The notes below the pieces were generated by a model. It had not been told where the DNA came from, made no database searches, and worked only from the letters and a program-made list of their open reading frames with translations. Shown here in pieces: positions 19,678 through 61,957 of a stretch of 64,000 bases of DNA. This DNA is from Clostridia bacterium (lineage in GTDB: Bacteria; Bacillota; Clostridia; Oscillospirales; CAG-272): assembly GCA_017467105.1 (NCBI GenBank), contig JAFTSU010000006.1, positions 18,476 to 82,475 of the forward strand, written 5' to 3'. How positions within the stretch are numbered: position 1 is the stretch's first letter; each line of letters begins with the position of its first letter. The position numbers and the translations under genes are program-made.

Positions 19678-19718
19678 AATAACAGGGCGGTTTGATCATC
19701 TCAAATCGCCCTGTTATT
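19678..19718. terminator. Bidirectional hairpin terminator, relative of the cotJC-locus hairpins
   Basis: An 18-base stem with one wobble (19678-19695 with 19701-19718) and loop TCATC. Its core GGGCGGTTTGA/TCAAATCGCCC closely resembles the hairpins at 20394-20421 and 21184-21211, so it is the last of three related hairpins after cotJC. Confidence 0.9.
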
Positions 19719-19730
19719 AACGTTTGCGGA

Positions 19731-19802
19731 GCAAGCATTTCATCCGACCTATCGGATTTCATCCACGGATGTGGATTTCATCTGCCAAGGGCAGATTTCA
19801 TC
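19731..19802. repeat. Array of short hairpins with TTTCATC spacers
   Basis: Consecutive small dyads (ATCCGACCTATCGGAT, ATCCACGGATGTGGAT, ATCTGCCAAGGGCAGAT) are joined by a TTC junction, so each unit reads TTTCATC...GAT. The arms differ in sequence from unit to unit while the frame is kept. A short related set occurs at 21216-21270. Confidence 0.8.
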
Positions 19803-19840
19803 GAGAATTTTTATCCTGCAAAATTCTCATTGCTTCGCCA
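19803..19840 (-). repeat. Degraded copy of the cotJC 3' end
   Basis: On the minus strand it would encode GEAMRILQDKNSR, matching the cotJC terminus GEAMEILKDKKF. It lies just downstream of the stop of the 153-residue gene and before the terminator at 19718. The bases leading into it (TTGACTGTATTGGCGAAGC) are the same as those before the copy at 20435. Confidence 0.8.
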
Positions 19841-19862
19841 ATACAGTCAATATGAAGTATTT

Positions 19863-20324
19863 TTACCAGTTTTCTGCAATGTCAACTGTTTTGTTATATA
19901 CGGTAACAAAAGGGAAAGAGTGGTCATCAACCTTAAAGAAAACCCACTGTTCGCATTCATCGTCAAAATGATGAAAGCCGTTTTTAATATACATTTCAAT
20001 TCTTATACCGTTATCCAAAATAATTAGAACGTCGTGAAAAGAGTTGACATTCACAGACGTTACAATGCCACCCTCTATTTTATCTCTATATTGCTCAACA
20101 AAATACCATTCGTCATTATTTGTATCTTCCTGGCGATCCCAACTCTGGTAATCTAAAGTTGTTACAAGAATATCATTATCACTAATAATACGAGTATGGC
20201 ATAGTGCGTGAAGTACGTAATCTCCGAAACTAAAATCCATCATTTCACATATAAGACGCAAGCCGTCTAATCGTTTTCCAACGATTATTTGAAGATGTTC
20301 ATTCAACTTGGTTTGATATTCCAT
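19863..20324 (-). CDS. Hypothetical protein, 153 residues
   Basis: I do not recognise the family. The protein is acidic, soluble, without signal or membrane segments, rich in beta-type alternation (LIILDNGIRIEMYIKNGFHHFDDECEQWVFFKVDDHSFPF). Such compact acidic single-domain proteins are often immunity proteins or small house-keeping accessories, but nothing proves that here. It has its own promoter (20392-20364) and is followed directly by a degenerate cotJC 3' tail and hairpin, forming the distal unit of the array after cotJC. Confidence 0.75.
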   Translation of the reverse strand: MEYQTKLNEHLQIIVGKRLDGLRLICEMMDFSFGDYVLHALCHTRIISDNDILVTTLDYQSWDRQEDTNNDEWYFVEQYRDKIEGGIVTSVNVNSFHDVLIILDNGIRIEMYIKNGFHHFDDECEQWVFFKVDDHSFPFVTVYNKTVDIAENW

Positions 20325-20363
20325 AATTCTACCTCGTCTAATTCAAGTTTATTGATTAGTTTC

Positions 20364-20392
20364 ATTATATCACACCCTCACGAAAATGTAAA
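20364..20392 (-). promoter_or_regulatory. Promoter of the 153-residue gene
   Basis: TTTACA (20392-20387), 17 bases, TATAAT (20369-20364). The spacer ends GTGTGA directly before TATAAT, as in the promoter at 21184-21156, so the two unit promoters are related. It starts directly beside the preceding hairpin. Confidence 0.75.
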
Positions 20393-20393
20393 G

Positions 20394-20421
20394 AGGACGG
20401 CTTGATTTCTCAAACCGCCCT
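20394..20421 (-). terminator. Hairpin shared with the one after cotJC
   Basis: Stem GGCGGTTTGA/TCAAGCCGTCC with loop GAAA on the minus strand. The 28 bases are identical to 21184-21211. It follows the gene ending at 20497 and its cotJC-like tail. There is no long T run, so termination is likely but not certain. Confidence 0.7.
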
Positions 20422-20434
20422 TATCTTTATTTAG

Positions 20435-20473
20435 TTAGAATTTCTTATTTTTCAATATTTCCATAGCTTCGCC
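20435..20473 (-). repeat. Copy of the cotJC 3' end (13 codons)
   Basis: Minus strand encodes GEAMEILKNKKF and stop, against GEAMEILKDKKF and stop at the real cotJC end; 35 of 39 bases agree. It lies directly downstream of the 203-residue gene and is not joined to the rest of cotJC. Confidence 0.85.
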
Positions 20474-20496
20474 AATACAGTCAACATAAAGTATAT

Positions 20497-21108
20497 TTAA
20501 CTAAGATTATCACATTTTGTAATCTCAGGTCCAAAATGAAGAGGCTCGCAATTATCGTTTACCTCCCATAAATAACTGTACAAATACAGAATGTGTGTGT
20601 AATGCGGTGGTTTTGCTACGTATTGACGATAATCTGCGGAGCGTTTCCAAAACAACTCCAAGGTGAAACGGTCAGGCAAACTTGATAACAACTCTGCAAA
20701 AGAATCAGCCTGTTCATCCGAAAGTGACATCCAAACACTGTAAACAGAAGGATTTGGCATACTGGGTGCATTGTCAAACTTTTCTTTGATTTTGGGATTT
20801 TCTGCAAAAGCATCTTCTATAGCTCTCACAACATCCTGCGACACAAGCTGACAGTGTATAGAGTCAAGACATTCGCATGCATTACTTGGCTTCATTTTTG
20901 CTGTGAAACCTTTTTTAAGCACCACCCAGTCGCCGAGTCTGTCACCCTTTTTCCAAGATTGTCCATTATAAGAATAATCTTCATCTGCATATTTGGGGAA
21001 AATGGCAACGACCTTCCAATAGCCTGCACTATACTGTGTAACCCAATCACCAACCTTAAGTGTGGTTGTTGGTGTGGAGTTTTTCTTAAAAATATCAAAT
21101 AATCCCAT
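20497..21108 (-). CDS. Hypothetical protein, 203 residues
   Basis: Starts MGLFDIFKKNS, an opening common in small cytoplasmic proteins of unknown role. Residues 15-70 (KVGDWVTQYSAGYWKVVAIFPKY) look like a small beta-barrel; the C-terminal half is alpha-helical with an aromatic-rich end. No family could be assigned. It has its own promoter (21184-21156) and is followed by a copy of the cotJC 3' end. Base composition is slightly more AT-rich than cotJABC, which fits later acquisition. Confidence 0.75.
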   Translation of the reverse strand: MGLFDIFKKNSTPTTTLKVGDWVTQYSAGYWKVVAIFPKYADEDYSYNGQSWKKGDRLGDWVVLKKGFTAKMKPSNACECLDSIHCQLVSQDVVRAIEDAFAENPKIKEKFDNAPSMPNPSVYSVWMSLSDEQADSFAELLSSLPDRFTLELFWKRSADYRQYVAKPPHYTHILYLYSYLWEVNDNCEPLHFGPEITKCDNLS

Positions 21109-21155
21109 AGTTTACTCCTTAATTGATTAGTCAGCAGTATATGCCGTTTGATAAG

Positions 21156-21184
21156 ATTATATCACACCTATATAAAATAGTCAA
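21156..21184 (-). promoter_or_regulatory. Promoter of the 203-residue gene
   Basis: TTGACT (21184-21179), 17 bases, TATAAT (21161-21156) on the minus strand, with the spacer again ending GTGTGA. The -35 abuts the hairpin behind cotJC. Confidence 0.8.
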
Positions 21185-21270
21185 GGACGGCTTGATTTCT
21201 CAAACCGCCCTGTTTATTTCATCCTCATCCACCGCTAAAGCGGTCCCCCTTCCCCTATCTTGGGGAAGGC
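21184..21270. repeat. Hairpin after cotJC plus short hairpin array
   Basis: The 28-base hairpin at 21184-21211 (identical to 20394-20421) is followed by small dyads CCGCTAAAGCGG and CCTTCCCC...GGGGAAGG separated by TTTCATC-like bases. It fills the gap between the cotJC stop and the next unit's promoter. Confidence 0.75.
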
Positions 21271-21274
21271 TTAT

Positions 21275-21832
21275 TTAGAATTTCTTATCTTTAAGAATTT
21301 CCATAGCTTCGCCGAAACGCTGGAAATGGACGATCTCGCGCTGGCGAAGGAATTTTATCGCATCGTTTACGTCCGGGTCGTCGGAGAGGCGAAGGATATT
21401 GTCGTACATCGCTCTCGCCTTCTGCTCTGCGGCAAGATCCTCGGTGATGCTGGCAAGGTTATCCTCCTTGGAGGCTATTGCCATTGCGTTAAAGGGCACT
21501 CCCGATGCTGACGCCGGATAGATCGCTGCTCCGTGCTCTACGTAATATTTATCAAAGCCGCCTGCGCGAATCTCGTCCGGTGTAAGATTTCTCGTCAGCT
21601 GATAGACGATGCTGGCTACCATTTCCATATGGCCAAGCTCCTCGCTGCCAACGTCTGTGAGTATTCCGATAACTCTGCCGTCGGGCATCGTATAACGCTG
21701 GTTAAGATAACGCATTGCCGCGCCTAACTCACCGTCCGGTCCGCCGAGAGCAGTTATAATGATACCTGCAAGTCTGGGGTTAGGGTTTGCTATTTTCACA
21801 GGATGCTGAAGACTTTTCTCGTATATCCACAT
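21275..21832 (-). CDS. cotJC: Spore coat protein CotJC, manganese-catalase fold
   Basis: Component of the inner spore coat; related to non-heme manganese catalases. The four-helix ferritin-like core is visible with metal-ligand helices (LGGPDGELGAAMRYLNQRY, TDVGSEELGHMEMVASIVYQL, DLAAEQKARAMYDNIL, FLRQREIVHFQRFGEAMEIL), including the E-x-x-H of EELGH and of REIVH. The length of 185 residues is standard. Last gene of cotJABC, 4 bases after cotJB. Expected to be made in the mother cell under sporulation control. Its 3' 39 bases recur twice downstream. Confidence 0.95.
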   Translation of the reverse strand: MWIYEKSLQHPVKIANPNPRLAGIIITALGGPDGELGAAMRYLNQRYTMPDGRVIGILTDVGSEELGHMEMVASIVYQLTRNLTPDEIRAGGFDKYYVEHGAAIYPASASGVPFNAMAIASKEDNLASITEDLAAEQKARAMYDNILRLSDDPDVNDAIKFLRQREIVHFQRFGEAMEILKDKKF

Positions 21833-38866: not shown

Positions 38867-41110
38867 TCACACGGTCAAGGGATTCAGATCCACGGAGAGA
38901 GTGACGTCTCTTACCTCTGCGAAGCTGCAAAGCATGCCGTGGAAGAGAGATCTGGAGCGGTGGTTCAGCTTGCACTTGACCACGACTCTCATTCTGTATT
39001 TTTCACATATTTTATAAACCTGCGCCTCGAACGGTCCGTAAACCATAAAGGGCAGATCGGAATAATCGTTTTCAATTTTCTCGCGAAGCAGATCTATTAA
39101 GTGACCGGACTCAGCCAACAGCCTCTCCTCACTCTCTGATGTAAGTGTCAGATTGACCATATCGCAGAACGGAGGATACGAAAGCTCACGTCTGAGCGCT
39201 ATCTCTCCCTCGTAGAAGGCATCGTAATCCTGCTTGCAGGCGAGACGCAAGACCTCGTTACCTGGCGAGAAGGTCTGAATAACAGCCTTTCCGCCGCTAT
39301 GCGCTCTGCCCGCTCTGCCGATCACCTGCGTAAGCAGAGAGAAGGTCTTCTCCGAGGCGCGAAAGTCGCTGTGGTACAGAGACGTATCAGCCAGCGCTAC
39401 TCCAACCAGCGTAACGTCGGGGAAATCGTGACCCTTCGCCACCATCTGCGTACCGAGAAGCACGTCATACTCTTTTTTGCGGAACTGATCCAGCATCTTG
39501 TCGTAGGCAAGCTTGCCCTGGGTCGTGTCCGCGTCCATTCTCATAACGCTCATATCCGGAAGATATTTATCAAGCTCGCTCTCAAGCTTCTGAGTACCGA
39601 AGCCAAGATAGGATAGCTTCTCAGCGTTACAGGACGGACAAGCTCTGGGGATCGGCTGAGCAAAGCCGCAGAGGTGACAAAGAAGCTTACCTCCCCCTCT
39701 GTCCGTATGATGAGTCAAGGAAACGGAGCAGCGGGGACATGTGATGACCTCTCCGCAGGATTTACAGCTGATCTCCGAGGAGTAGCCGCGCCTGTTCAGA
39801 AAAATGATCGCCTGCTTTTCGCTGTCATAGACCTCTGAAAGCTCGTTATAAAGCCGCTCGCTGATTGCGGAGAGATTACCGCGACGCAGCTCCTCGCGCA
39901 TATCTACGATGATCGCCTCGGGAAGAGACACACCGCCGTATCGGGTGCGCAGTGGTATAAGGGTATAGGTACCCGTCTTCGCCTTATAGAAGCTCTCAAG
40001 GGAGGGCGTGGCGGACGCGAGGAGCATAAGCGCCCCCGCCTTGCCGCATCTGTACGCCGCGATATCTCTGGCGTGGTACTTGGGATCCGACTCGGATTTA
40101 TAGGTATGCTCGTGCTCCTCGTCTATTACGATCAGCCCGAGATTTTTTATTGGCGCGAATATTGCGGATCTGGTGCCTATGACAAGATCTACGTCCCCTC
40201 TGTCTATTCTGCGCCAGGCGTCAAGCCTCTCGCCTCTTGAGAGAGAGGAGTGAATGACGGCGACCCTCTCGCCGTATCGGCTGCAGAAAATGTTTACCGT
40301 CTGAGGTGTAAGTGATATTTCGGGAACAAGCATAATGACAGTTTTACCGTCGGAAAGCACCCTGTCGATAAGACGCATTATAACCTTGGTTTTTCCGCTT
40401 CCCGTAACTCCGTAAAGAAGTGCCGCCCGTGGCTCGCCCGATTCTATCAGCTTTTCAGCCGTTTTGTACGCTGAGGACTGCTCATCAGATAGTACGATGG
40501 GGGACGTGTCGCGATTCAGCGCATATTTCTGGTAAGGATTGCGTATCTGCTCCCTCGACTCCACAGTCAAAACGCCCTTATCCCGAAGGGCTTTTATATG
40601 AGCGGGGGTAACCCCCTTTATCTCACGGATAAGCGACTCGTCTGCAGATGAAACACCTATAAGATAACGGATGATCTCACGCTGTCCCTCGCTTCTTATC
40701 CCTGCTCTGCCGGATGCCGAAAGAAGCGTCCGAGCCTCCTCTCCCGATATGGCGAGAGACAGGATACGCATCTCTTTGATATTTGCAAGATCGGTTATCG
40801 CTCCGGGCGGAAGGACGGTCCTGACCGCCTCTCCAAACGTGCAAAGCGTGTATTCCTTCATAAAAAGGCATAGCCCGAGCATCTCCTCCGAGAGAGAGTA
40901 TCGGTCGGTAATGACCGAATGCACGGGCTTTATCTGCGCCACCGACTCTGCCGTCTCACTCACACCGATAACAACAGCAACTCGAAGCCTGTTTGCCTTA
41001 CCGAACGGTACTCTTACGAGCGATCCGGGATTTATTACAGTGTCGCATGAATAGTCAAAGGGGCGGTCTATATGATAAGGAGCGTCCAATATATATACTT
41101 TTATAAACAT
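38867..41110 (-). CDS. priA: Primosomal protein N' (replication restart helicase)
   Basis: Superfamily 2 DNA helicase that reloads the replisome on stalled forks. Walker [15 protein letters not shown] box IVIDEEHEHTY, paired zinc-binding cysteines (CKSCGEVITCPRC, CHLCG, CPSC) and motif VIGRAGRAHSGG. ATG at 41110 is chosen since AAAGGAG precedes it; the ATG at 41131 overlaps that site. About 747 residues. rpoZ is upstream; coaBC, usual neighbour, is absent. Confidence 0.98.
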   Translation of the reverse strand: MFIKVYILDAPYHIDRPFDYSCDTVINPGSLVRVPFGKANRLRVAVVIGVSETAESVAQIKPVHSVITDRYSLSEEMLGLCLFMKEYTLCTFGEAVRTVLPPGAITDLANIKEMRILSLAISGEEARTLLSASGRAGIRSEGQREIIRYLIGVSSADESLIREIKGVTPAHIKALRDKGVLTVESREQIRNPYQKYALNRDTSPIVLSDEQSSAYKTAEKLIESGEPRAALLYGVTGSGKTKVIMRLIDRVLSDGKTVIMLVPEISLTPQTVNIFCSRYGERVAVIHSSLSRGERLDAWRRIDRGDVDLVIGTRSAIFAPIKNLGLIVIDEEHEHTYKSESDPKYHARDIAAYRCGKAGALMLLASATPSLESFYKAKTGTYTLIPLRTRYGGVSLPEAIIVDMREELRRGNLSAISERLYNELSEVYDSEKQAIIFLNRRGYSSEISCKSCGEVITCPRCSVSLTHHTDRGGGKLLCHLCGFAQPIPRACPSCNAEKLSYLGFGTQKLESELDKYLPDMSVMRMDADTTQGKLAYDKMLDQFRKKEYDVLLGTQMVAKGHDFPDVTLVGVALADTSLYHSDFRASEKTFSLLTQVIGRAGRAHSGGKAVIQTFSPGNEVLRLACKQDYDAFYEGEIALRRELSYPPFCDMVNLTLTSESEERLLAESGHLIDLLREKIENDYSDLPFMVYGPFEAQVYKICEKYRMRVVVKCKLNHRSRSLFHGMLCSFAEVRDVTLSVDLNPLTV

Positions 41111-58233: not shown

Positions 58234-58318
58234 GCGGATGTGGCGGAATTGGCAGACGCGCTGGTTTCAGGTTCCAGTGAAGCGATTCATGTGGGTTCAA
58301 GTCCCGTCATCCGCACCA
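58234..58318 (+). tRNA. tRNA-Leu, anticodon CAG
   Basis: An 85-base class II tRNA with encoded CCA. Acceptor arms GCGGATG and CATCCGC pair fully; D-arm GCG...CGC; anticodon loop TTCAGGT gives CAG at 58268-58270; a short variable arm; T-loop TTCAAGT. The anticodon stem has one T-T mismatch next to the loop. It has its own promoter and a strong terminator beginning at its 3' end. The 3' 52 bases recur at 61901. Confidence 0.96.
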
Positions 58319-58323
58319 AAAAA
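58267..58323 (+). repeat. Left copy of the 57-bp tRNA-Leu repeat (att-like)
   Basis: The segment from the anticodon loop to A6 after CCA is identical to 61901-61957. Such 3'-tRNA duplication, starting at the anticodon loop, is the classic footprint of site-specific integration. Confidence 0.9.
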
Positions 58324-58361
58324 TACTGCAGAAAGCATATGTTTTCTGCAGTATTTTTTTA
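58319..58361 (+). terminator. Terminator of tRNA-Leu
   Basis: Stem TACTGCAGAAA with TTTCTGCAGTA (58324-58353) flanked by A6 and T7. Confidence 0.9.
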
Positions 58362-58536
58362 TCCATTGCGAAAGCAATGGCATATCATCACGCTTTAGCG
58401 TGTATATCATCGCCACAGGCGTATATCATCAGCCGTAGGCTGTATTCGTTTTCGCAATGATGATATACAACACTCCGTGTTGATGATATGCAATTCCTCC
58501 GGAATTGATGATATACAAGGCTACCGCCTTGATTTT
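58361..58536. repeat. Hairpin array 1 with ATATCATC spacers
   Basis: Nine or more small dyads (ACGCTTTAGCGT, CGCCACAGGCG, AGCCGTAGGCT, AACACTCCGTGTT, AATTCCTCCGGAATT, AAGGCTACCGCCTT) are joined by GTATATCATC in the left half and by the complement GATGATATAC in the right half. So the array is a dyad made of dyads. Its last hairpin touches the promoter of the four-helix-bundle gene. Confidence 0.9.
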
Positions 58537-58557
58537 AGTTAGCTTTTGTGCTATAAT
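58529..58557 (+). promoter_or_regulatory. Promoter of four-helix-bundle gene A
   Basis: TTGATT (58529-58534), 17 bases, TATAAT (58552-58557); the -35 overlaps the right arm of the last hairpin. The same layout occurs at 62179-62207. Confidence 0.85.
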
Positions 58558-58577
58558 GTACCCAAAGAGGTGATATT

Positions 58578-58925
58578 ATGTCAAAGAATTACTTGCTTAT
58601 GTATTCAGAGCAGCTTGCAACCGATATTGAGTTGATGTGCCAAAGTATTAAAGCACCTTCAAACACTTTGTTCCAAATCCGCAAAAGTTCAAGTAGCGTT
58701 TACGCAAACATTCGTGAAGCAAATTACGGTCAATGCAAAGCAGATATGCTTTCAAAGTTTGAAATTGGTCTTAAAGAATGTAGCGAAACGGAAGGTTGGT
58801 TACAACTACTATTTAATACAAATGCCATAGATGAAGAAACATACAAAAAGCATCGCAATCTTTGTGGCAGGATCAGACGTATGCTGATATTAAGTTGTAA
58901 GACGTTAAAGGAGAATTTGAAATGA
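58578..58925 (+). CDS. Four-helix-bundle protein (23S rRNA IVP / Avd-like), copy A
   Basis: 115 residues, helical, matching the S23/IVP 'four helix bundle' family: LFQIRKSSSSVYANIREANYGQCKADMLSKFEIGLKECSETEGWLQLL. Relatives are encoded in 23S rRNA intervening sequences or serve as Avd partners of retroelement reverse transcriptases; no reverse transcriptase is present here. AGAGGTGAT precedes ATG. Stop overlaps the lipoprotein start by 4 bases (ATGA). Copy B at 62228-62575 is about 90 percent identical. Confidence 0.88.
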   Translation: MSKNYLLMYSEQLATDIELMCQSIKAPSNTLFQIRKSSSSVYANIREANYGQCKADMLSKFEIGLKECSETEGWLQLLFNTNAIDEETYKKHRNLCGRIRRMLILSCKTLKENLK

Positions 58926-59488
58926 AAAAGATATTAGCAATTATACTTGTGCTTTGCACGTGTTGCCTCACATCTTGCTCGCTGTTTATCACCGAGTATG
59001 AAGGTCTTGAAACCTTTGCGGACGGGAATTCAGATATAAGCCTATGTCAAGAGGTTATCCCATTTGGTATGATATCAAAGTTTGAATATTCTAACGGCAA
59101 TCATTTCTTTATAAGCAAGTATGAGCTTACTAAATATGAAGTTCAAAAGGTGCTTTTATACTTAACTTATGATGCTGATACATATACAGATGCTAAAGCA
59201 TTTGTAAGCACAAATCTTCACCTCGTTGAAAGAAGCGACGAAACCGTAAGCAACTATGTATTTTTTGATAATTACGGTTACGAAGAATACTATTATGAGG
59301 GACGCGGTGTAGTAGATTATCCTACTTTTTATACAATGGTTGCGTTCGATGATGACAACTACACTATTGTATTTTTCGGGATGTATATTCCTAATAATTC
59401 TATACATTTGGGTAACGATGACTCGCCAACAACGTTTGATGAACACTTAAAATATTTCTATGGCGATTGGTATGATTTTTTCTCATAG
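58922..59488 (+). CDS. Lipoprotein of unknown function A
   Basis: Signal peptide MKKILAIILVLCTCCLTSC with lipobox LTSC (lipid Cys 19). The mature 170 residues are acidic and Tyr/Phe-rich without a known domain. Translationally coupled (ATGA) to the four-helix-bundle gene. Copy B's lipoprotein at 62572 has the same coupling but a different mature part, so the four-helix-bundle module seems to be paired with interchangeable lipoproteins. Confidence 0.85.
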   Translation: MKKILAIILVLCTCCLTSCSLFITEYEGLETFADGNSDISLCQEVIPFGMISKFEYSNGNHFFISKYELTKYEVQKVLLYLTYDADTYTDAKAFVSTNLHLVERSDETVSNYVFFDNYGYEEYYYEGRGVVDYPTFYTMVAFDDDNYTIVFFGMYIPNNSIHLGNDDSPTTFDEHLKYFYGDWYDFFS

Positions 59489-59613
59489 CATTTCGTCAGC
59501 GAGATATAAATTCAGCCGGATAATTGAATTTGAAACCGCTTTGGTAAAAACTCATCCGTTTTTGACCTAAATCATCCGCTTTCAATTTTGTATTCTTTTC
59601 GTAGCCCTTTCAC

Positions 59614-59813
59614 AAAAAAGTCGTATCGATAGGATACGACTTTTTTTATCCAAACCGCAGGTTTGGTATATCATCACGCGTAAGCGTGTATCTCATCAGC
59701 TCCTTTGGAGCTGTATATCATCACTCGTAAGAGTGTATTTCCCTGCGTCTTGATGATATGCAATGCTTTACATTGATGATATACACGCCTTTCGGCGTGA
59801 TTTGGGTTATAAT
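59614..59813. repeat. Terminator and hairpin array 2 with ATATCATC spacers
   Basis: A6, stem GTCGTATC/GATACGAC, T7, then dyads in the same design and nearly the same order as array 3 at 61952 (identical for the first 65 bases). It ends GTGATTTGGGTTATAAT: the -10 is kept but bases between it and the -35 are missing, so the promoter that follows arrays 1 and 3 is broken here, and no four-helix-bundle gene follows. Confidence 0.88.
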
Positions 59814-59964
59814 CCGTCTCTTAAAAAGGTAAAATATCTTTTTTATAGCCCACTCACATGCCCGGAAAGCCTTGAAAACTCAGGCTTTTCAGGTTTTTCT
59901 TTTGCTTTTCGCAACCGTTTTTTCGTTGGCAGACGCATTTTGCTGACGGCAAGATAAACGAATG

Positions 59965-60423
59965 TCAAAGTGAAATCATTATGAAAATCGTTGCCACCAC
60001 AATAAGTACTCCAATAAGCGCCAACGTTAAACACCCCGATCTTCTATTATGGATATAGTGCTGAGTTTTTTTATTGTTTGTTGATTGATACGAATTCTTT
60101 CCACGCTGTATCTCAAGTTTCTTCTTATGATAAAGTGCGAGCGGATCTTTTCCTGCGATAATCCGAGAATAAAAGTCATCAAGCCACAAAGCATCTTTTA
60201 TATCAGACATATTTTCAGCAGTGCATCCGGGATCATGAACTATACGGTTTCTTATCCACCGGTATTGCTTTAGTTGTTTTAAATCTTCTTCCCACCCCGA
60301 AACATATCTATTGCCACCAGAAGTCTTTATCATATCATCAATGTAGAATGATAAACCATGATTGCCGCCATACATTTCGTTGCATATTTTTTCAACACGT
60401 TTATACGAATCAAGAAAATCCAT
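59965..60423 (-). CDS. DUF6548-like membrane-anchored protein
   Basis: 152 residues. The first 95 residues (SYKRVEKICNEMYGGNHGLSFYI, LKQLKQYRWIRNRIVHDPGC, ALWLDDFYSRIIAGKDPLALY) match, from memory, the DUF6548 family of Firmicutes proteins. A basic linker leads to a single C-terminal transmembrane helix (CLTLALIGVLIVVATIFIMI), so it is tail-anchored. It starts directly after the fic stop, in one operon with it. Role unknown; the pairing with Fic inside a putative island suggests defence or toxin function. Confidence 0.75.
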   Translation of the reverse strand: MDFLDSYKRVEKICNEMYGGNHGLSFYIDDMIKTSGGNRYVSGWEEDLKQLKQYRWIRNRIVHDPGCTAENMSDIKDALWLDDFYSRIIAGKDPLALYHKKKLEIQRGKNSYQSTNNKKTQHYIHNRRSGCLTLALIGVLIVVATIFIMISL

Positions 60424-61452
60424 TTATTGCTCCTTTTTTATTCTCCAACTTCCGCTTTTCTTACCACCTACGCGCTCTACGATTCCGCGTTCTTGCATGG
60501 ATTTAACAGCAGTTTTAACTGTACGAGGGGATTTGCCTATTCTTTCAGCAACTTCATCGAGCGTGATGCTAGGATTTGCGCGGAGAATCTCAATAATCGC
60601 GGTTGCTCGGTTTTTAACAATCGGGGCAGGTTCTTTTGGCTCTTTGTAAGCGACGTGCATTTCTCTATTAGAGAGGATATTGTCTTCACCGAGAAGAAGA
60701 TTACGAAGGAAAAGTTCTACATAGTAGGTCGTTTCGGTAATGCCTTTTTCGCGGTTGTTGTAGTTTGCTCTTACAAGAGCGTTTCTGAAATACCAGGAGT
60801 TTTCTGCAAATATATCGTTAGTTACGTTGAACCCGAGTTTCGAAAGATACTTTATAAGAAATACAGCAGTAGTTCTTGTGTTGCCTTCTCCAAAGATGTG
60901 AATTTGCCAGAGGTTAGATATAAACTTTGCAACGTGCTTTATAACGTCTTCGGTGGACAGTCCTTTGTAGTCGAAGTTCTTTTCTACACCGAAATCGTAT
61001 TCCAAGGTTTCGCGTAAGTTTATAGCGTTGCCGTAAATAACGGTATCACCGTCAAGCACCCACTCGTCTTTAGTGATGTTATAATCTCTGATTCTTCCGG
61101 CATGAGAGTAGATGCCTTCAAAAAGGCGTTTGTGGATTGTAGTGAACTCGACCGGAGAGAATACAAATGACTTTTCAGATATAATCTCGGCTATACGTAC
61201 AGATACTTTATCCGCTTCTTCTGCGCGCTCTGACTTCGCTTTGTTTTCCTTGTAATATGAGGTTATGAGCTTATGTGCATCATCGAAGCTTATATCACCG
61301 TCAATATGCTGCTCAGCGGTTTTTATGAGGTATTCAGACGGCTCAAGTCCATCAACCTTTTGCAGTCCTATCGCGGTTTTCCACGCGTAAGTCTTATAAT
61401 ATTTAGTCGGTTCTTTTTCTCTTGAATACTCTTCAAAGATTTCGTCTTTCAT
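60424..61452 (-). CDS. Fic-domain protein with C-terminal winged helix
   Basis: A probable AMP-transferase (or other nucleotide transferase). Fic motif HIFGEGNTRT (185-194) differs from the consensus HPFxxGNGR in Ile for Pro and Thr for Gly but keeps the catalytic His, Glu, Asn and Arg. Residues 40-68 resemble small Fic-associated inhibitory segments; C-terminal residues 275-340 form a winged HTH (ITLDEVAERIGKSPRTVKTAVKSMQERGIVERVGG). Related two-part Fic proteins are common in Clostridia. The upstream region holds repeated AAAGTRCAA words. Confidence 0.9.
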   Translation of the reverse strand: MKDEIFEEYSREKEPTKYYKTYAWKTAIGLQKVDGLEPSEYLIKTAEQHIDGDISFDDAHKLITSYYKENKAKSERAEEADKVSVRIAEIISEKSFVFSPVEFTTIHKRLFEGIYSHAGRIRDYNITKDEWVLDGDTVIYGNAINLRETLEYDFGVEKNFDYKGLSTEDVIKHVAKFISNLWQIHIFGEGNTRTTAVFLIKYLSKLGFNVTNDIFAENSWYFRNALVRANYNNREKGITETTYYVELFLRNLLLGEDNILSNREMHVAYKEPKEPAPIVKNRATAIIEILRANPSITLDEVAERIGKSPRTVKTAVKSMQERGIVERVGGKKSGSWRIKKEQ

Positions 61453-61484
61453 ATGGCACTCCTAGTTTTTTATTATACATATAA

Positions 61485-61562
61485 AGTATACCACAATTTT
61501 CTCTAAAGTACAATACTTAAAGTGCAACTTTTTTTGCTTTTTTCACTTTAAAATTGCACTTT
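61485..61562 (-). promoter_or_regulatory. fic promoter with repeated operator words
   Basis: On the minus strand TTGTAC (61513-61508), 17 bases, TATACT (61490-61485). The word AAAGTACAA/AAAGTGCAA occurs at 61505-61513 and 61519-61527, and inverted (TTGCACTTT) at 61554-61562. The Fic protein's own winged helix could bind these. Confidence 0.6.
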
Positions 61563-61814
61563 AAATTCGGTATTTAAAAATCTCTTTTCTTTGTTTAAGG
61601 CAGTATAATTTTTTGCCATTATCCCTACCAAAAACAGACGCAAAAAGGCGGGTTTTCGGGGATGAAAACTCGCTACAATCGCCTGGAAAACTATTTGAGG
61701 GATACTTGCCTTATTCCGCACTTATTTGCAATACGCTGTAAATTTCAGCCTATTTCACCTTTTGACCACAGGAAATCATTTGGGAGAAAAACACAATAAA
61801 ACCATTAAAAACGC

Positions 61815-61843
61815 TTGATTCAATTGCGTTTCTATGGTATACT
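61815..61843 (+). promoter_or_regulatory. Orphan promoter before the tRNA 3' fragment
   Basis: TTGATT (61815-61820), 17 bases, TATACT (61838-61843). It lies about 58 bases before the tRNA 3' half and leads to no supported reading frame. The remainder of 61563-61900 shows no gene. Confidence 0.55.
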
Positions 61844-61900
61844 AAACACGTTAATAAACTTAACACGGGTACGGGAGTTTCCACCGAGGTAGCATCACCA

Positions 61901-61957
61901 TCAGGTTCCAGTGAAGCGATTCATGTGGGTTCAAGTCCCGTCATCCGCACCAAAAAA
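61901..61957 (+). repeat. Right copy of the 57-bp tRNA-Leu repeat (tRNA 3' fragment)
   Basis: Exact copy of 58267-58323: anticodon loop to CCA and A6. The preceding bases do not form a tRNA 5' half, so it is a fragment. Together with the left copy it bounds a 3.6-kb segment holding four-helix-bundle A, lipoprotein A, DUF6548-like and fic. Confidence 0.9.

Follow-up and report, generated by a model that had tools for sequence, protein, structure and literature searches.

Single-gene cassettes in tandem behind cotJC in Clostridia, probably accreted through a large serine recombinase

Staphylococcal cassette chromosome (SCC) elements insert by means of the serine recombinases CcrAB or CcrC at the 3′ end of rlmH, the end of the gene being restored upon insertion; they occur as tandem composites and include members devoid of recombinase genes. 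In integrons, the attC sites of the cassettes carry GTTRRRY/RYYYAAC boxes. The genomic islands found at ssrA in Dehalococcoides involve a CcrB-type serine recombinase, DsiB, and 15 of these islands have no integration module, according to the accessible part of the report (PMC3146451). Recombinase-less tandem islands have been explained by accretion in the accessible parts of that report and of another one (PMC5704250). Here we analyze an array of small gene units behind cotJC, a spore coat protein gene, in a 64 kb stretch of DNA from a Clostridia bacterium (contig JAFTSU010000006.1; the whole stretch is hereafter called the window). The best reading of the locus is a tandem accretion of the SCC/Dehalococcoides ssrA type, miniaturised to integron-like single-gene cassettes. 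We consider it likely that these are mobile cassettes, accreted in tandem at the cotJC 3′ end through site-specific recombination by a large serine recombinase (LSR).

An earlier inspection of the window (the original prediction) had described tandem units behind cotJC, each ending in a copy of the cotJC 3′ end, and interpreted them as repeated insertions of approximately 0.75 kb. All of the features described were present, on the minus strand: the tail copy reads as anticipated, both promoters have 17-base spacers, and the hairpins, said to share 28 identical bases, align at 28 of 29. The locus contains two complete one-gene cassettes, in which a cotJC tail copy is followed by a hairpin, a promoter, one gene, and a half-site fused to the next cotJC tail. 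The features, given as positions in the 64 kb stretch, are as follows.

21275..21832, minus strand: cotJC, the platform gene, an open reading frame (ORF) for a Mn-catalase-type spore coat protein of 185 aa (PF05067, Mn_catalase, E 1.2e-51)
21309..21313, minus strand: GGCGA within cotJC, the putative crossover site (attB), with the core dinucleotide GA at 21309-21310
20469..21308, minus strand: cassette 1, 840 bp, from the core GA of cotJC to the core GA of the first end site
21183..21211, minus strand: terminator-like hairpin of cassette 1, arms of 12 bp and loop of 4 nt
21156..21184, minus strand: promoter of cassette 1, TTGACT-17-TATAAT with TGTGATATAAT, from the sequence
20497..21108, minus strand: cargo gene 1, an ORF of 203 aa with no Pfam family at E≤1
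20469..20498, minus strand: P-type half-site AAATATACTTTATGTTGACTGTATTGGCGA, right end of cassette 1, from the sequence and the end-site alignment
20435..20473, minus strand: cotJC tail copy 1, which is the left end of cassette 2; 35 of 39 bases match cotJC and it translates as GEAMEILKNKKF-stop
19835..20468, minus strand: cassette 2, 634 bp, measured from core GA to core GA
20393..20421, minus strand: terminator-like hairpin of cassette 2, with 28 of 29 bases as in cassette 1
20364..20392, minus strand: promoter of cassette 2, TTTACA-17-TATAAT, from the sequence
19863..20324, minus strand: cargo gene 2, an ORF of 153 aa with no Pfam family at E≤1
19835..19864, minus strand: P-type half-site AAAAATACTTCATATTGACTGTATTGGCGA, right end of cassette 2, from the sequence and the end-site alignment
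19724..19839, minus strand: last cotJC tail (GEAMRILQDKNSR, then stop; core 19835-19836) leading into small hairpins, seen by eye, with the constant linker GATGAAAT
19681..19716, minus strand: terminal hairpin related to the cassette hairpins, by eye

When the cotJC 3′ end was aligned locally with the DNA that follows the gene, the two tail copies scored 32 and 20, the next best match 11 and the reversed tail 13, which rules out an origin of the copies by chance. The sequence GTGTGATATAAT occurs without mismatch in the window at the two cassette promoters only. A feature absent from the original prediction is the motif TACTTYATRTTGACTGTATTGGCGA (window form), which lies just upstream of each tail and marks the cassette boundary. 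The crossover was placed at GGCGA on two grounds: it is the point at which cotJC bodies and tails cease to correspond in the arrays, and at which cotJC gives way to LSR elements in four other genomes (G368, G244, G410 and G278; see below). In several cassettes (window 19724-19839; loci L053, L054, L058, L122, L125) small hairpins were also seen by eye between tail and terminator, their linkers being constant (GATGAAAT, AATTCAT, ACTTCAC) and their stems variable. In some species the cotJC tail itself appears by eye to form the first stem of these hairpins.

The distribution of the arrays was studied in 69 genomes of the genus, many of them incomplete (the window's own is 57% complete), and in 395 genomes of the family. 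Within the genus, the end motif (at most 2 mismatches) was found in 11 of the 69 genomes, at 24 places; the reversed-pattern control gave 2 matches, both in a single other genome. The hairpin occurs in the same 11 genomes, all 26 listed places lying in or right beside arrays, with none in the control; thus the hairpin is not a terminator repeat of general occurrence. In nine of the 11 genomes cotJC stands ahead of the array on the same contig, and in G052 it closes one contig while the array opens another. In G058, in which cotJC was not found, the array lies behind a gene for a 188-aa protein, present in this one genome of the 69, and begins with a cotJC-type tail. Two array-free relatives (G011 and G034) have 136 and 190 bp between cotJC and an nfnA-like gene. 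With arrays the distance is 2296 bp in G012, 2132 bp in G014 and 4589 bp in G046, and 6513 bp, other genes included, in G006. This comparison covers the 6 of 15 cotJC loci where the neighbour was found, along with one contig lacking cotJC. The window's own array is flanked by a GDSL-type gene, shared with G001. The number and kind of cassettes differ between species, including the two genes of the window, so that these do not form a constant pair. Together with the array-free relatives and the sharing of cargo and tails described below, these differences support the repeated insertion of small cassettes at the cotJC 3′ end.

In the family set the end motif was matched in nine genomes. A cotJC tail follows it in G000, G012, G291, G368 and G426, and no cotJC tail does in G312, G158, G365 and G270. 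A scan of named genome contigs for the exact motif returned 12 stretches, 7 of them from six RGIG "Clostridia bacterium" metagenome-assembled genomes (roe deer, goat, yak, sheep) and 5 from unrelated organisms; the motif was not found on viral contigs. Two further genomes, G409 and G421, look like carriers of arrays with divergent sites. In G270 (contig 49, near 45617; L159), a 117-aa gene located behind an FtsH-like gene ends in a P-like half-site without cotJC tail; by eye it resembles a 104-aa cargo of G409 and is possibly another ectopic cassette.

Altogether, 33 cargo cassettes were listed from 15 genomes in four genera, two of them with undefined left ends (the first of G052 and that of G426). 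Cassettes with both ends measure 458-1200 bp, except for one of 1732 bp that contains an inserted transposase-like gene (HTH_38, rve). The longest ORF is co-oriented with cotJC in 32 of the 33, and the cargo stop codon lies 20-50 bp ahead of the core in 32. A promoter motif was present in 27 of the 33 leaders, compared to 2 of 33 reversed leaders; a hairpin was scored by a strict rule in 23 (no control was run for this count). The leaders, comprising tail, hairpin and promoter, are similar within arrays, and most internal tails still translate as the cotJC C-terminus (GEAMEILKDKKF, GEAMRSLTE, GDALRIAQDNLDSKNFYA and others), although the second tail of G014 is decayed and a few others are changed. 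Alignment of 36 end sites yielded the consensus half-site AAAAATACTTCATGTTGACTGTATTGGCGA. These sites were selected by similarity and position: a loose scan returned 40, from which 6 weak off-array sites were dropped and to which 2 with a changed core were added by hand. The same 196 kb, read in reverse, matched the consensus at no more than 15 of 24 bases.

Cargo is shared across species. Twenty-two of 36 cargo ORFs fall into nine families common to several genomes, at 60-93% identity (in one pair the likeness is limited to a 71-aa zinc-ribbon end), and three of these families cross genera. Scans of 34 of the ORFs identified SF0329 (2), DUF2310 (2), DUF3885 (1) and weaker matches, among them Imm32 (E 0.003), in Pfam; two weak matches in PADLOC (E 0.003 and 0.01); seven PHROGs families, one member each; and SF0329 (2) plus zinc-finger matches in NCBIfam. 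No recombinase family was found in these 34, the remaining two ORFs being lipoprotein-like relatives. Tails move as well. The cotJC tail of the window is identical to an internal tail of G039 (31/31 bases), the cotJC bodies (360 nt) being 78% identical, and it matches one G006 tail at 30/31 (bodies 73%), a tail that in turn agrees with G006's own cotJC tail at only 12/31. The break between tail and body falls at GGCGA. The comparison suggests that the cassettes may provide cotJC with its last dozen or so amino acids. If so, the native tail should stand last in the array, which is consistent with the arrangement in G000 and G001.

The original prediction had seen no recombinase. This is correct for the window, and the candidate described here was not found in the genus either; in sister genera, however, a serine recombinase whose half-site is similar occurs at cotJC. 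In G368, cotJC runs at GGC|GA into an element of about 8 kb encoding ArdA, a DUF3991/Toprim-like protein, a protein with a SAM-like tyrosine-recombinase-type domain and P0004, a 504-aa protein with the domain set of an LSR (Resolvase PF00239, Recombinase PF07508, zinc ribbon PF13408). Directly past the LSR stop codon lie TGCTTCATGTTGATTGTTTTGGCGA, a cotJC tail, and a 151-aa cassette with the usual end. The order is the same in G244, where the element is internally deleted and retains LSR residues 192-504 only. Denoting by B and B′ the two halves of the bacterial site and by P and P′ those of the element, cotJC passes to P′ at GGC|GA in both genomes, followed by the element, P.B′, the cassette and P.B′. 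Their P half-sites match the cassette consensus at 21/24 (G368) and 18/24 (G244).

Across the 395 family genomes, 17 matched P0004 at E≤1e-70 (at most three candidates scored per genome). Among the 12 LSR loci with at least 50% identity, nine, in eight genera and including G368 and G244, run into a cotJC tail within approximately 60 nt of the LSR stop codon; tblastn matches all nine tails, the match in G154 also overlapping the LSR end. Since these loci run into cotJC tails, the P0004-type LSR family appears to use cotJC as attB. Both ends were seen at four loci (G368, G244, G410, G278), most others being seen on the tail side only. As is typical of LSR elements, which have attL and attR at their ends and an attP dyad of about 46-50 bp, the rebuilt attP sites of three elements are dyads, with 17/23, 18/23 and 16/25 positions paired, where 2000 shuffles of each reached no more than 13. 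No relative of the LSR was found on viral contigs; relatives of 48% identity lie on two Campylobacter plasmids, and two relatives in phages fall below 30%.

These elements suggest how the arrays could form. The attB site, B.B′, would correspond to the cotJC codons for ...RFGEA..., with crossover at the GA of GGCGA. A cassette would consist of the GA, the cotJC tail (B′), a terminator, a promoter, one gene and the P half-site. Because it begins with B′ and ends with P, its insertion would leave cotJC as B.B′, its tail now supplied by the cassette, and generate a new P.B′ junction between the cassette and the old tail. Since cotJC would remain whole, attB would stay intact and arrays could grow. 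We weakly prefer a route in which cassettes are passengers. An element of the form B.P′-LSR-P.B′1-cassette-P.B′2 would leave by recombination of attL with the far attR, taking the cassette along, enter a new host by integration and there excise on its own through attL and the near attR, so that the cassette and its tail stay behind. Standard attP × attB and attL × attR reactions would suffice, and cotJC and the cassettes would be expected to have an LSR between them, which is the order in both G368-type elements. In a direct route, a P.B′ circle would integrate into B.B′, a reaction that is not standard for LSRs. That an enzyme of the G368 type, or one closely related to it, moves the cassettes, probably carrying them along as passengers, is an inference, the LSR not having been found in the 69 genus genomes. 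More tentatively, and with slightly less than even confidence, we propose a serine-recombinase counterpart of the integron. A protein-gene platform that keeps its attB would gather promoter-bearing one-gene cassettes across species and genera, each newcomer rewriting the C-terminus, while the recombinase is present only transiently.

Several observations weigh against accretion through an LSR. The left ends of the cassettes are B′ (tail) and not P′, and the reaction of a single-cassette circle, P.B′ × B.B′, departs from the standard attP × attB; the passenger route avoids this reaction and rests on two genomes, one of them with a truncated LSR. P0004 was matched in none of the 69 genus genomes at E≤1e-40, many of these being incomplete; in the family, however, this query does return matches. 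A tyrosine-recombinase-type SAM-like domain (PF02899, E 0.00016) is encoded in the G368 element as well. At three of the 12 LSR loci no cotJC tail follows, and the P half-sites of four other, more distant LSR loci match the cassette consensus at 13-16/24, about as well as the reversed control (15); the sequence link to the cassettes is hence limited to the G368/G244 type. Within each of G291, G368 and G244 the tails are nearly alike, though the cargo of these genomes also occurs in other genera; this points to homogenisation or local duplication. The native tail does not stand last in G018, whose cotJC has the ALRSLTE end of its array-free relatives, the last tail reading MRSLTE. Fourteen cargo ORFs are unshared in this set, including the window's two, and the arrays were compared between species, not strains.

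Some of these observations could be accommodated if the cassettes had arisen once by LSR accretion but now spread and reshuffled with no site-specific enzyme, the repeated leaders serving RecA-dependent recombination once DNA had entered by transformation or conjugation. The similarity of leaders within arrays, the near-identical tails in the three genomes just named and the lack of an LSR match in the genus all fit this scenario. It is nonetheless unlikely, since tail exchange breaks at GGCGA (bodies 73-78%, tails 30-31/31), the G058 cassettes with a cotJC-type tail sit behind the unrelated 188-aa gene, and the P half-site is conserved behind unrelated genes. A purely local origin, by tandem duplication of the cotJC 3′ end followed by divergence, with native neighbours as cargo, would explain the likeness, in several arrays, between the tails and the cotJC of the host itself. 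It can hardly be entertained, being contradicted by cargo that varies between species and is partly common to different genera, by foreign tail types inside arrays, by a common end motif that does not derive from cotJC and by the G058 array behind another gene.

A strict integron, with an IntI-like tyrosine integrase acting on attC-type hairpins, would account for tandem one-gene cassettes with common ends and mostly uncharacterised cargo, for the tails that by eye form stem-loops and for the tyrosine-recombinase-type domain in the G368 element. We regard it as very unlikely: the consensus of the 36 end sites contains no GTTRRRY box, a serine recombinase with a similar half-site is present at the same nucleotide, and no IntI-like ORF was noticed beside the arrays (in ORF lists inspected by eye, with no HMM search and in incomplete genomes). 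The 519-aa LSR of a skin-like element that splits cotJC at codon ~133 concerns the same gene in the same genus, but its crossover is about 120 bp upstream, none of the 11 array genomes has cotJC split at that codon, and the cassettes end at another sequence. This enzyme was rejected as the driver on grounds of position, and the chance that it moves the cassettes seems exceedingly small. IS200/IS605- or RAYT-type hairpin transposition and XerCD had been considered and were set aside once the LSR appeared; no search for them was made.

The skin-like elements were recorded in five genomes (G002, G008, G030, G031 and G036; L073-L079), where 8-27 kb of DNA splits cotJC at codon ~133-137. In seven g32 genomes the cotJC match likewise stops at residue 137-138. 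The three elements with listed ORFs encode a 519-534 aa recombinase (one was scanned and is of the large serine type) and a second cotJC-like Mn catalase (~33% identical); one of the elements encodes a 1362-aa protein that looks Cas9-like by eye. In G001 (L125 and contig 19), cotJC is also interrupted at codon ~63-71, its parts lying on two contigs.

Compared with SCC, the cotJC arrays share a serine recombinase at the 3′ end of a protein gene, restoration of that end, tandem arrangement and recombinase-less members; SCC elements, however, span tens of kb and usually carry ccr, whereas cotJC cassettes have one gene and no recombinase. The arrays resemble integrons in having tandem one-gene cassettes on a fixed platform, mostly uncharacterised cargo and a shared recombination end. 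They differ in that neither tyrosine integrase nor attC was seen, a serine recombinase being found instead, and in that most cassettes have their own promoter. As with SCC and the ssrA islands, a serine recombinase element sits at a gene 3′ end with tandem end copies; here the mobile unit has no recombinase genes, the LSR being found in separate elements only. The islands at Dehalococcoides ssrA, as described in the part of the report available, are likewise tandem behind a gene 3′ end and associated with a serine recombinase (a candidate in our case), and their boundaries combine an element motif (15 bp there) with a copy of the gene 3′ end (PMC3146451). They are larger and spread within 100 kb behind an RNA gene, in contrast to single-gene units of ~0.5-1.2 kb at a protein gene with an exchanged C-terminus (PMC3146451). 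cis-mobilizable elements (CIMEs), from the accessible part of their description, are also recombinase-less, tandem with a partner that shares their att sites and movable by it (PMC5704250). CIMEs keep both attL and attR, unlike cotJC cassettes, whose left end is a gene tail (B′) and whose right boundary alone is attR-like (PMC5704250). The right boundary is P.B′ and the left B.B′ or P.B′, not B.P′, although in the truncated G244 element B.P′ and P.B′ are both retained.

Because the arrays follow the logic of SCC and ssrA islands, we do not call them categorically new. What sets them apart is the single-gene scale, mostly with an own promoter, the protein gene with exchanged C-terminus and an enzyme not found in the array-bearing genus. 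Literature searches on cotJC found no description of such a cassette system in titles, the beginnings of abstracts and the accessible part of PMC11222575, most subscription papers and all bioRxiv preprints lying outside the search. The arrays suggest that integron-like storing and trading of single genes has re-arisen on an unrelated enzyme in Clostridia from ruminant gut metagenomes. They make cotJC an anchor for mining a pool of mostly uncharacterised mobile genes, offer a possible reason why the last residues of a spore coat protein vary between species, and, for studies of array growth, provide a serine recombinase whose attB is defined and whose attP has been rebuilt.

The original prediction had also linked the array to a unit behind tRNA-Leu. 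The likeness is architectural only, and operation of the same system there is not supported, both occurrences of the end motif in this incomplete genome lying in the cotJC array. The unit, at 58234-61953 of the window, is bounded by a partial 3′ copy of tRNA-Leu(CAG) (~61903-61953) and contains a gene for a 23S_rRNA_IVP-type protein (PF05635), a lipoprotein-like gene and small hairpins with the linker TGATGATATAC. The 203-aa product of cargo gene 1 found no solved structural relative (three matches, all E 0.09 or worse). Among the other 68 genus genomes a single relative turned up, behind tRNA-Trp in G006, 39% identical and with an in-frame stop. This site (L223, contig 14) comprises the tRNA-Trp gene, small hairpins with the linker AACATCATT, the relative, a leader repeat and a PF05635 gene. 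Thus, cotJC and tRNA platforms may share cargo. A possible further platform lies in G000 (contig 16, ~39300-39796; L043), where the apparent end of a ribosomal protein S9 gene is followed by hairpins with a GATGAAAT-type linker, a cassette-like promoter and the start of a gene.

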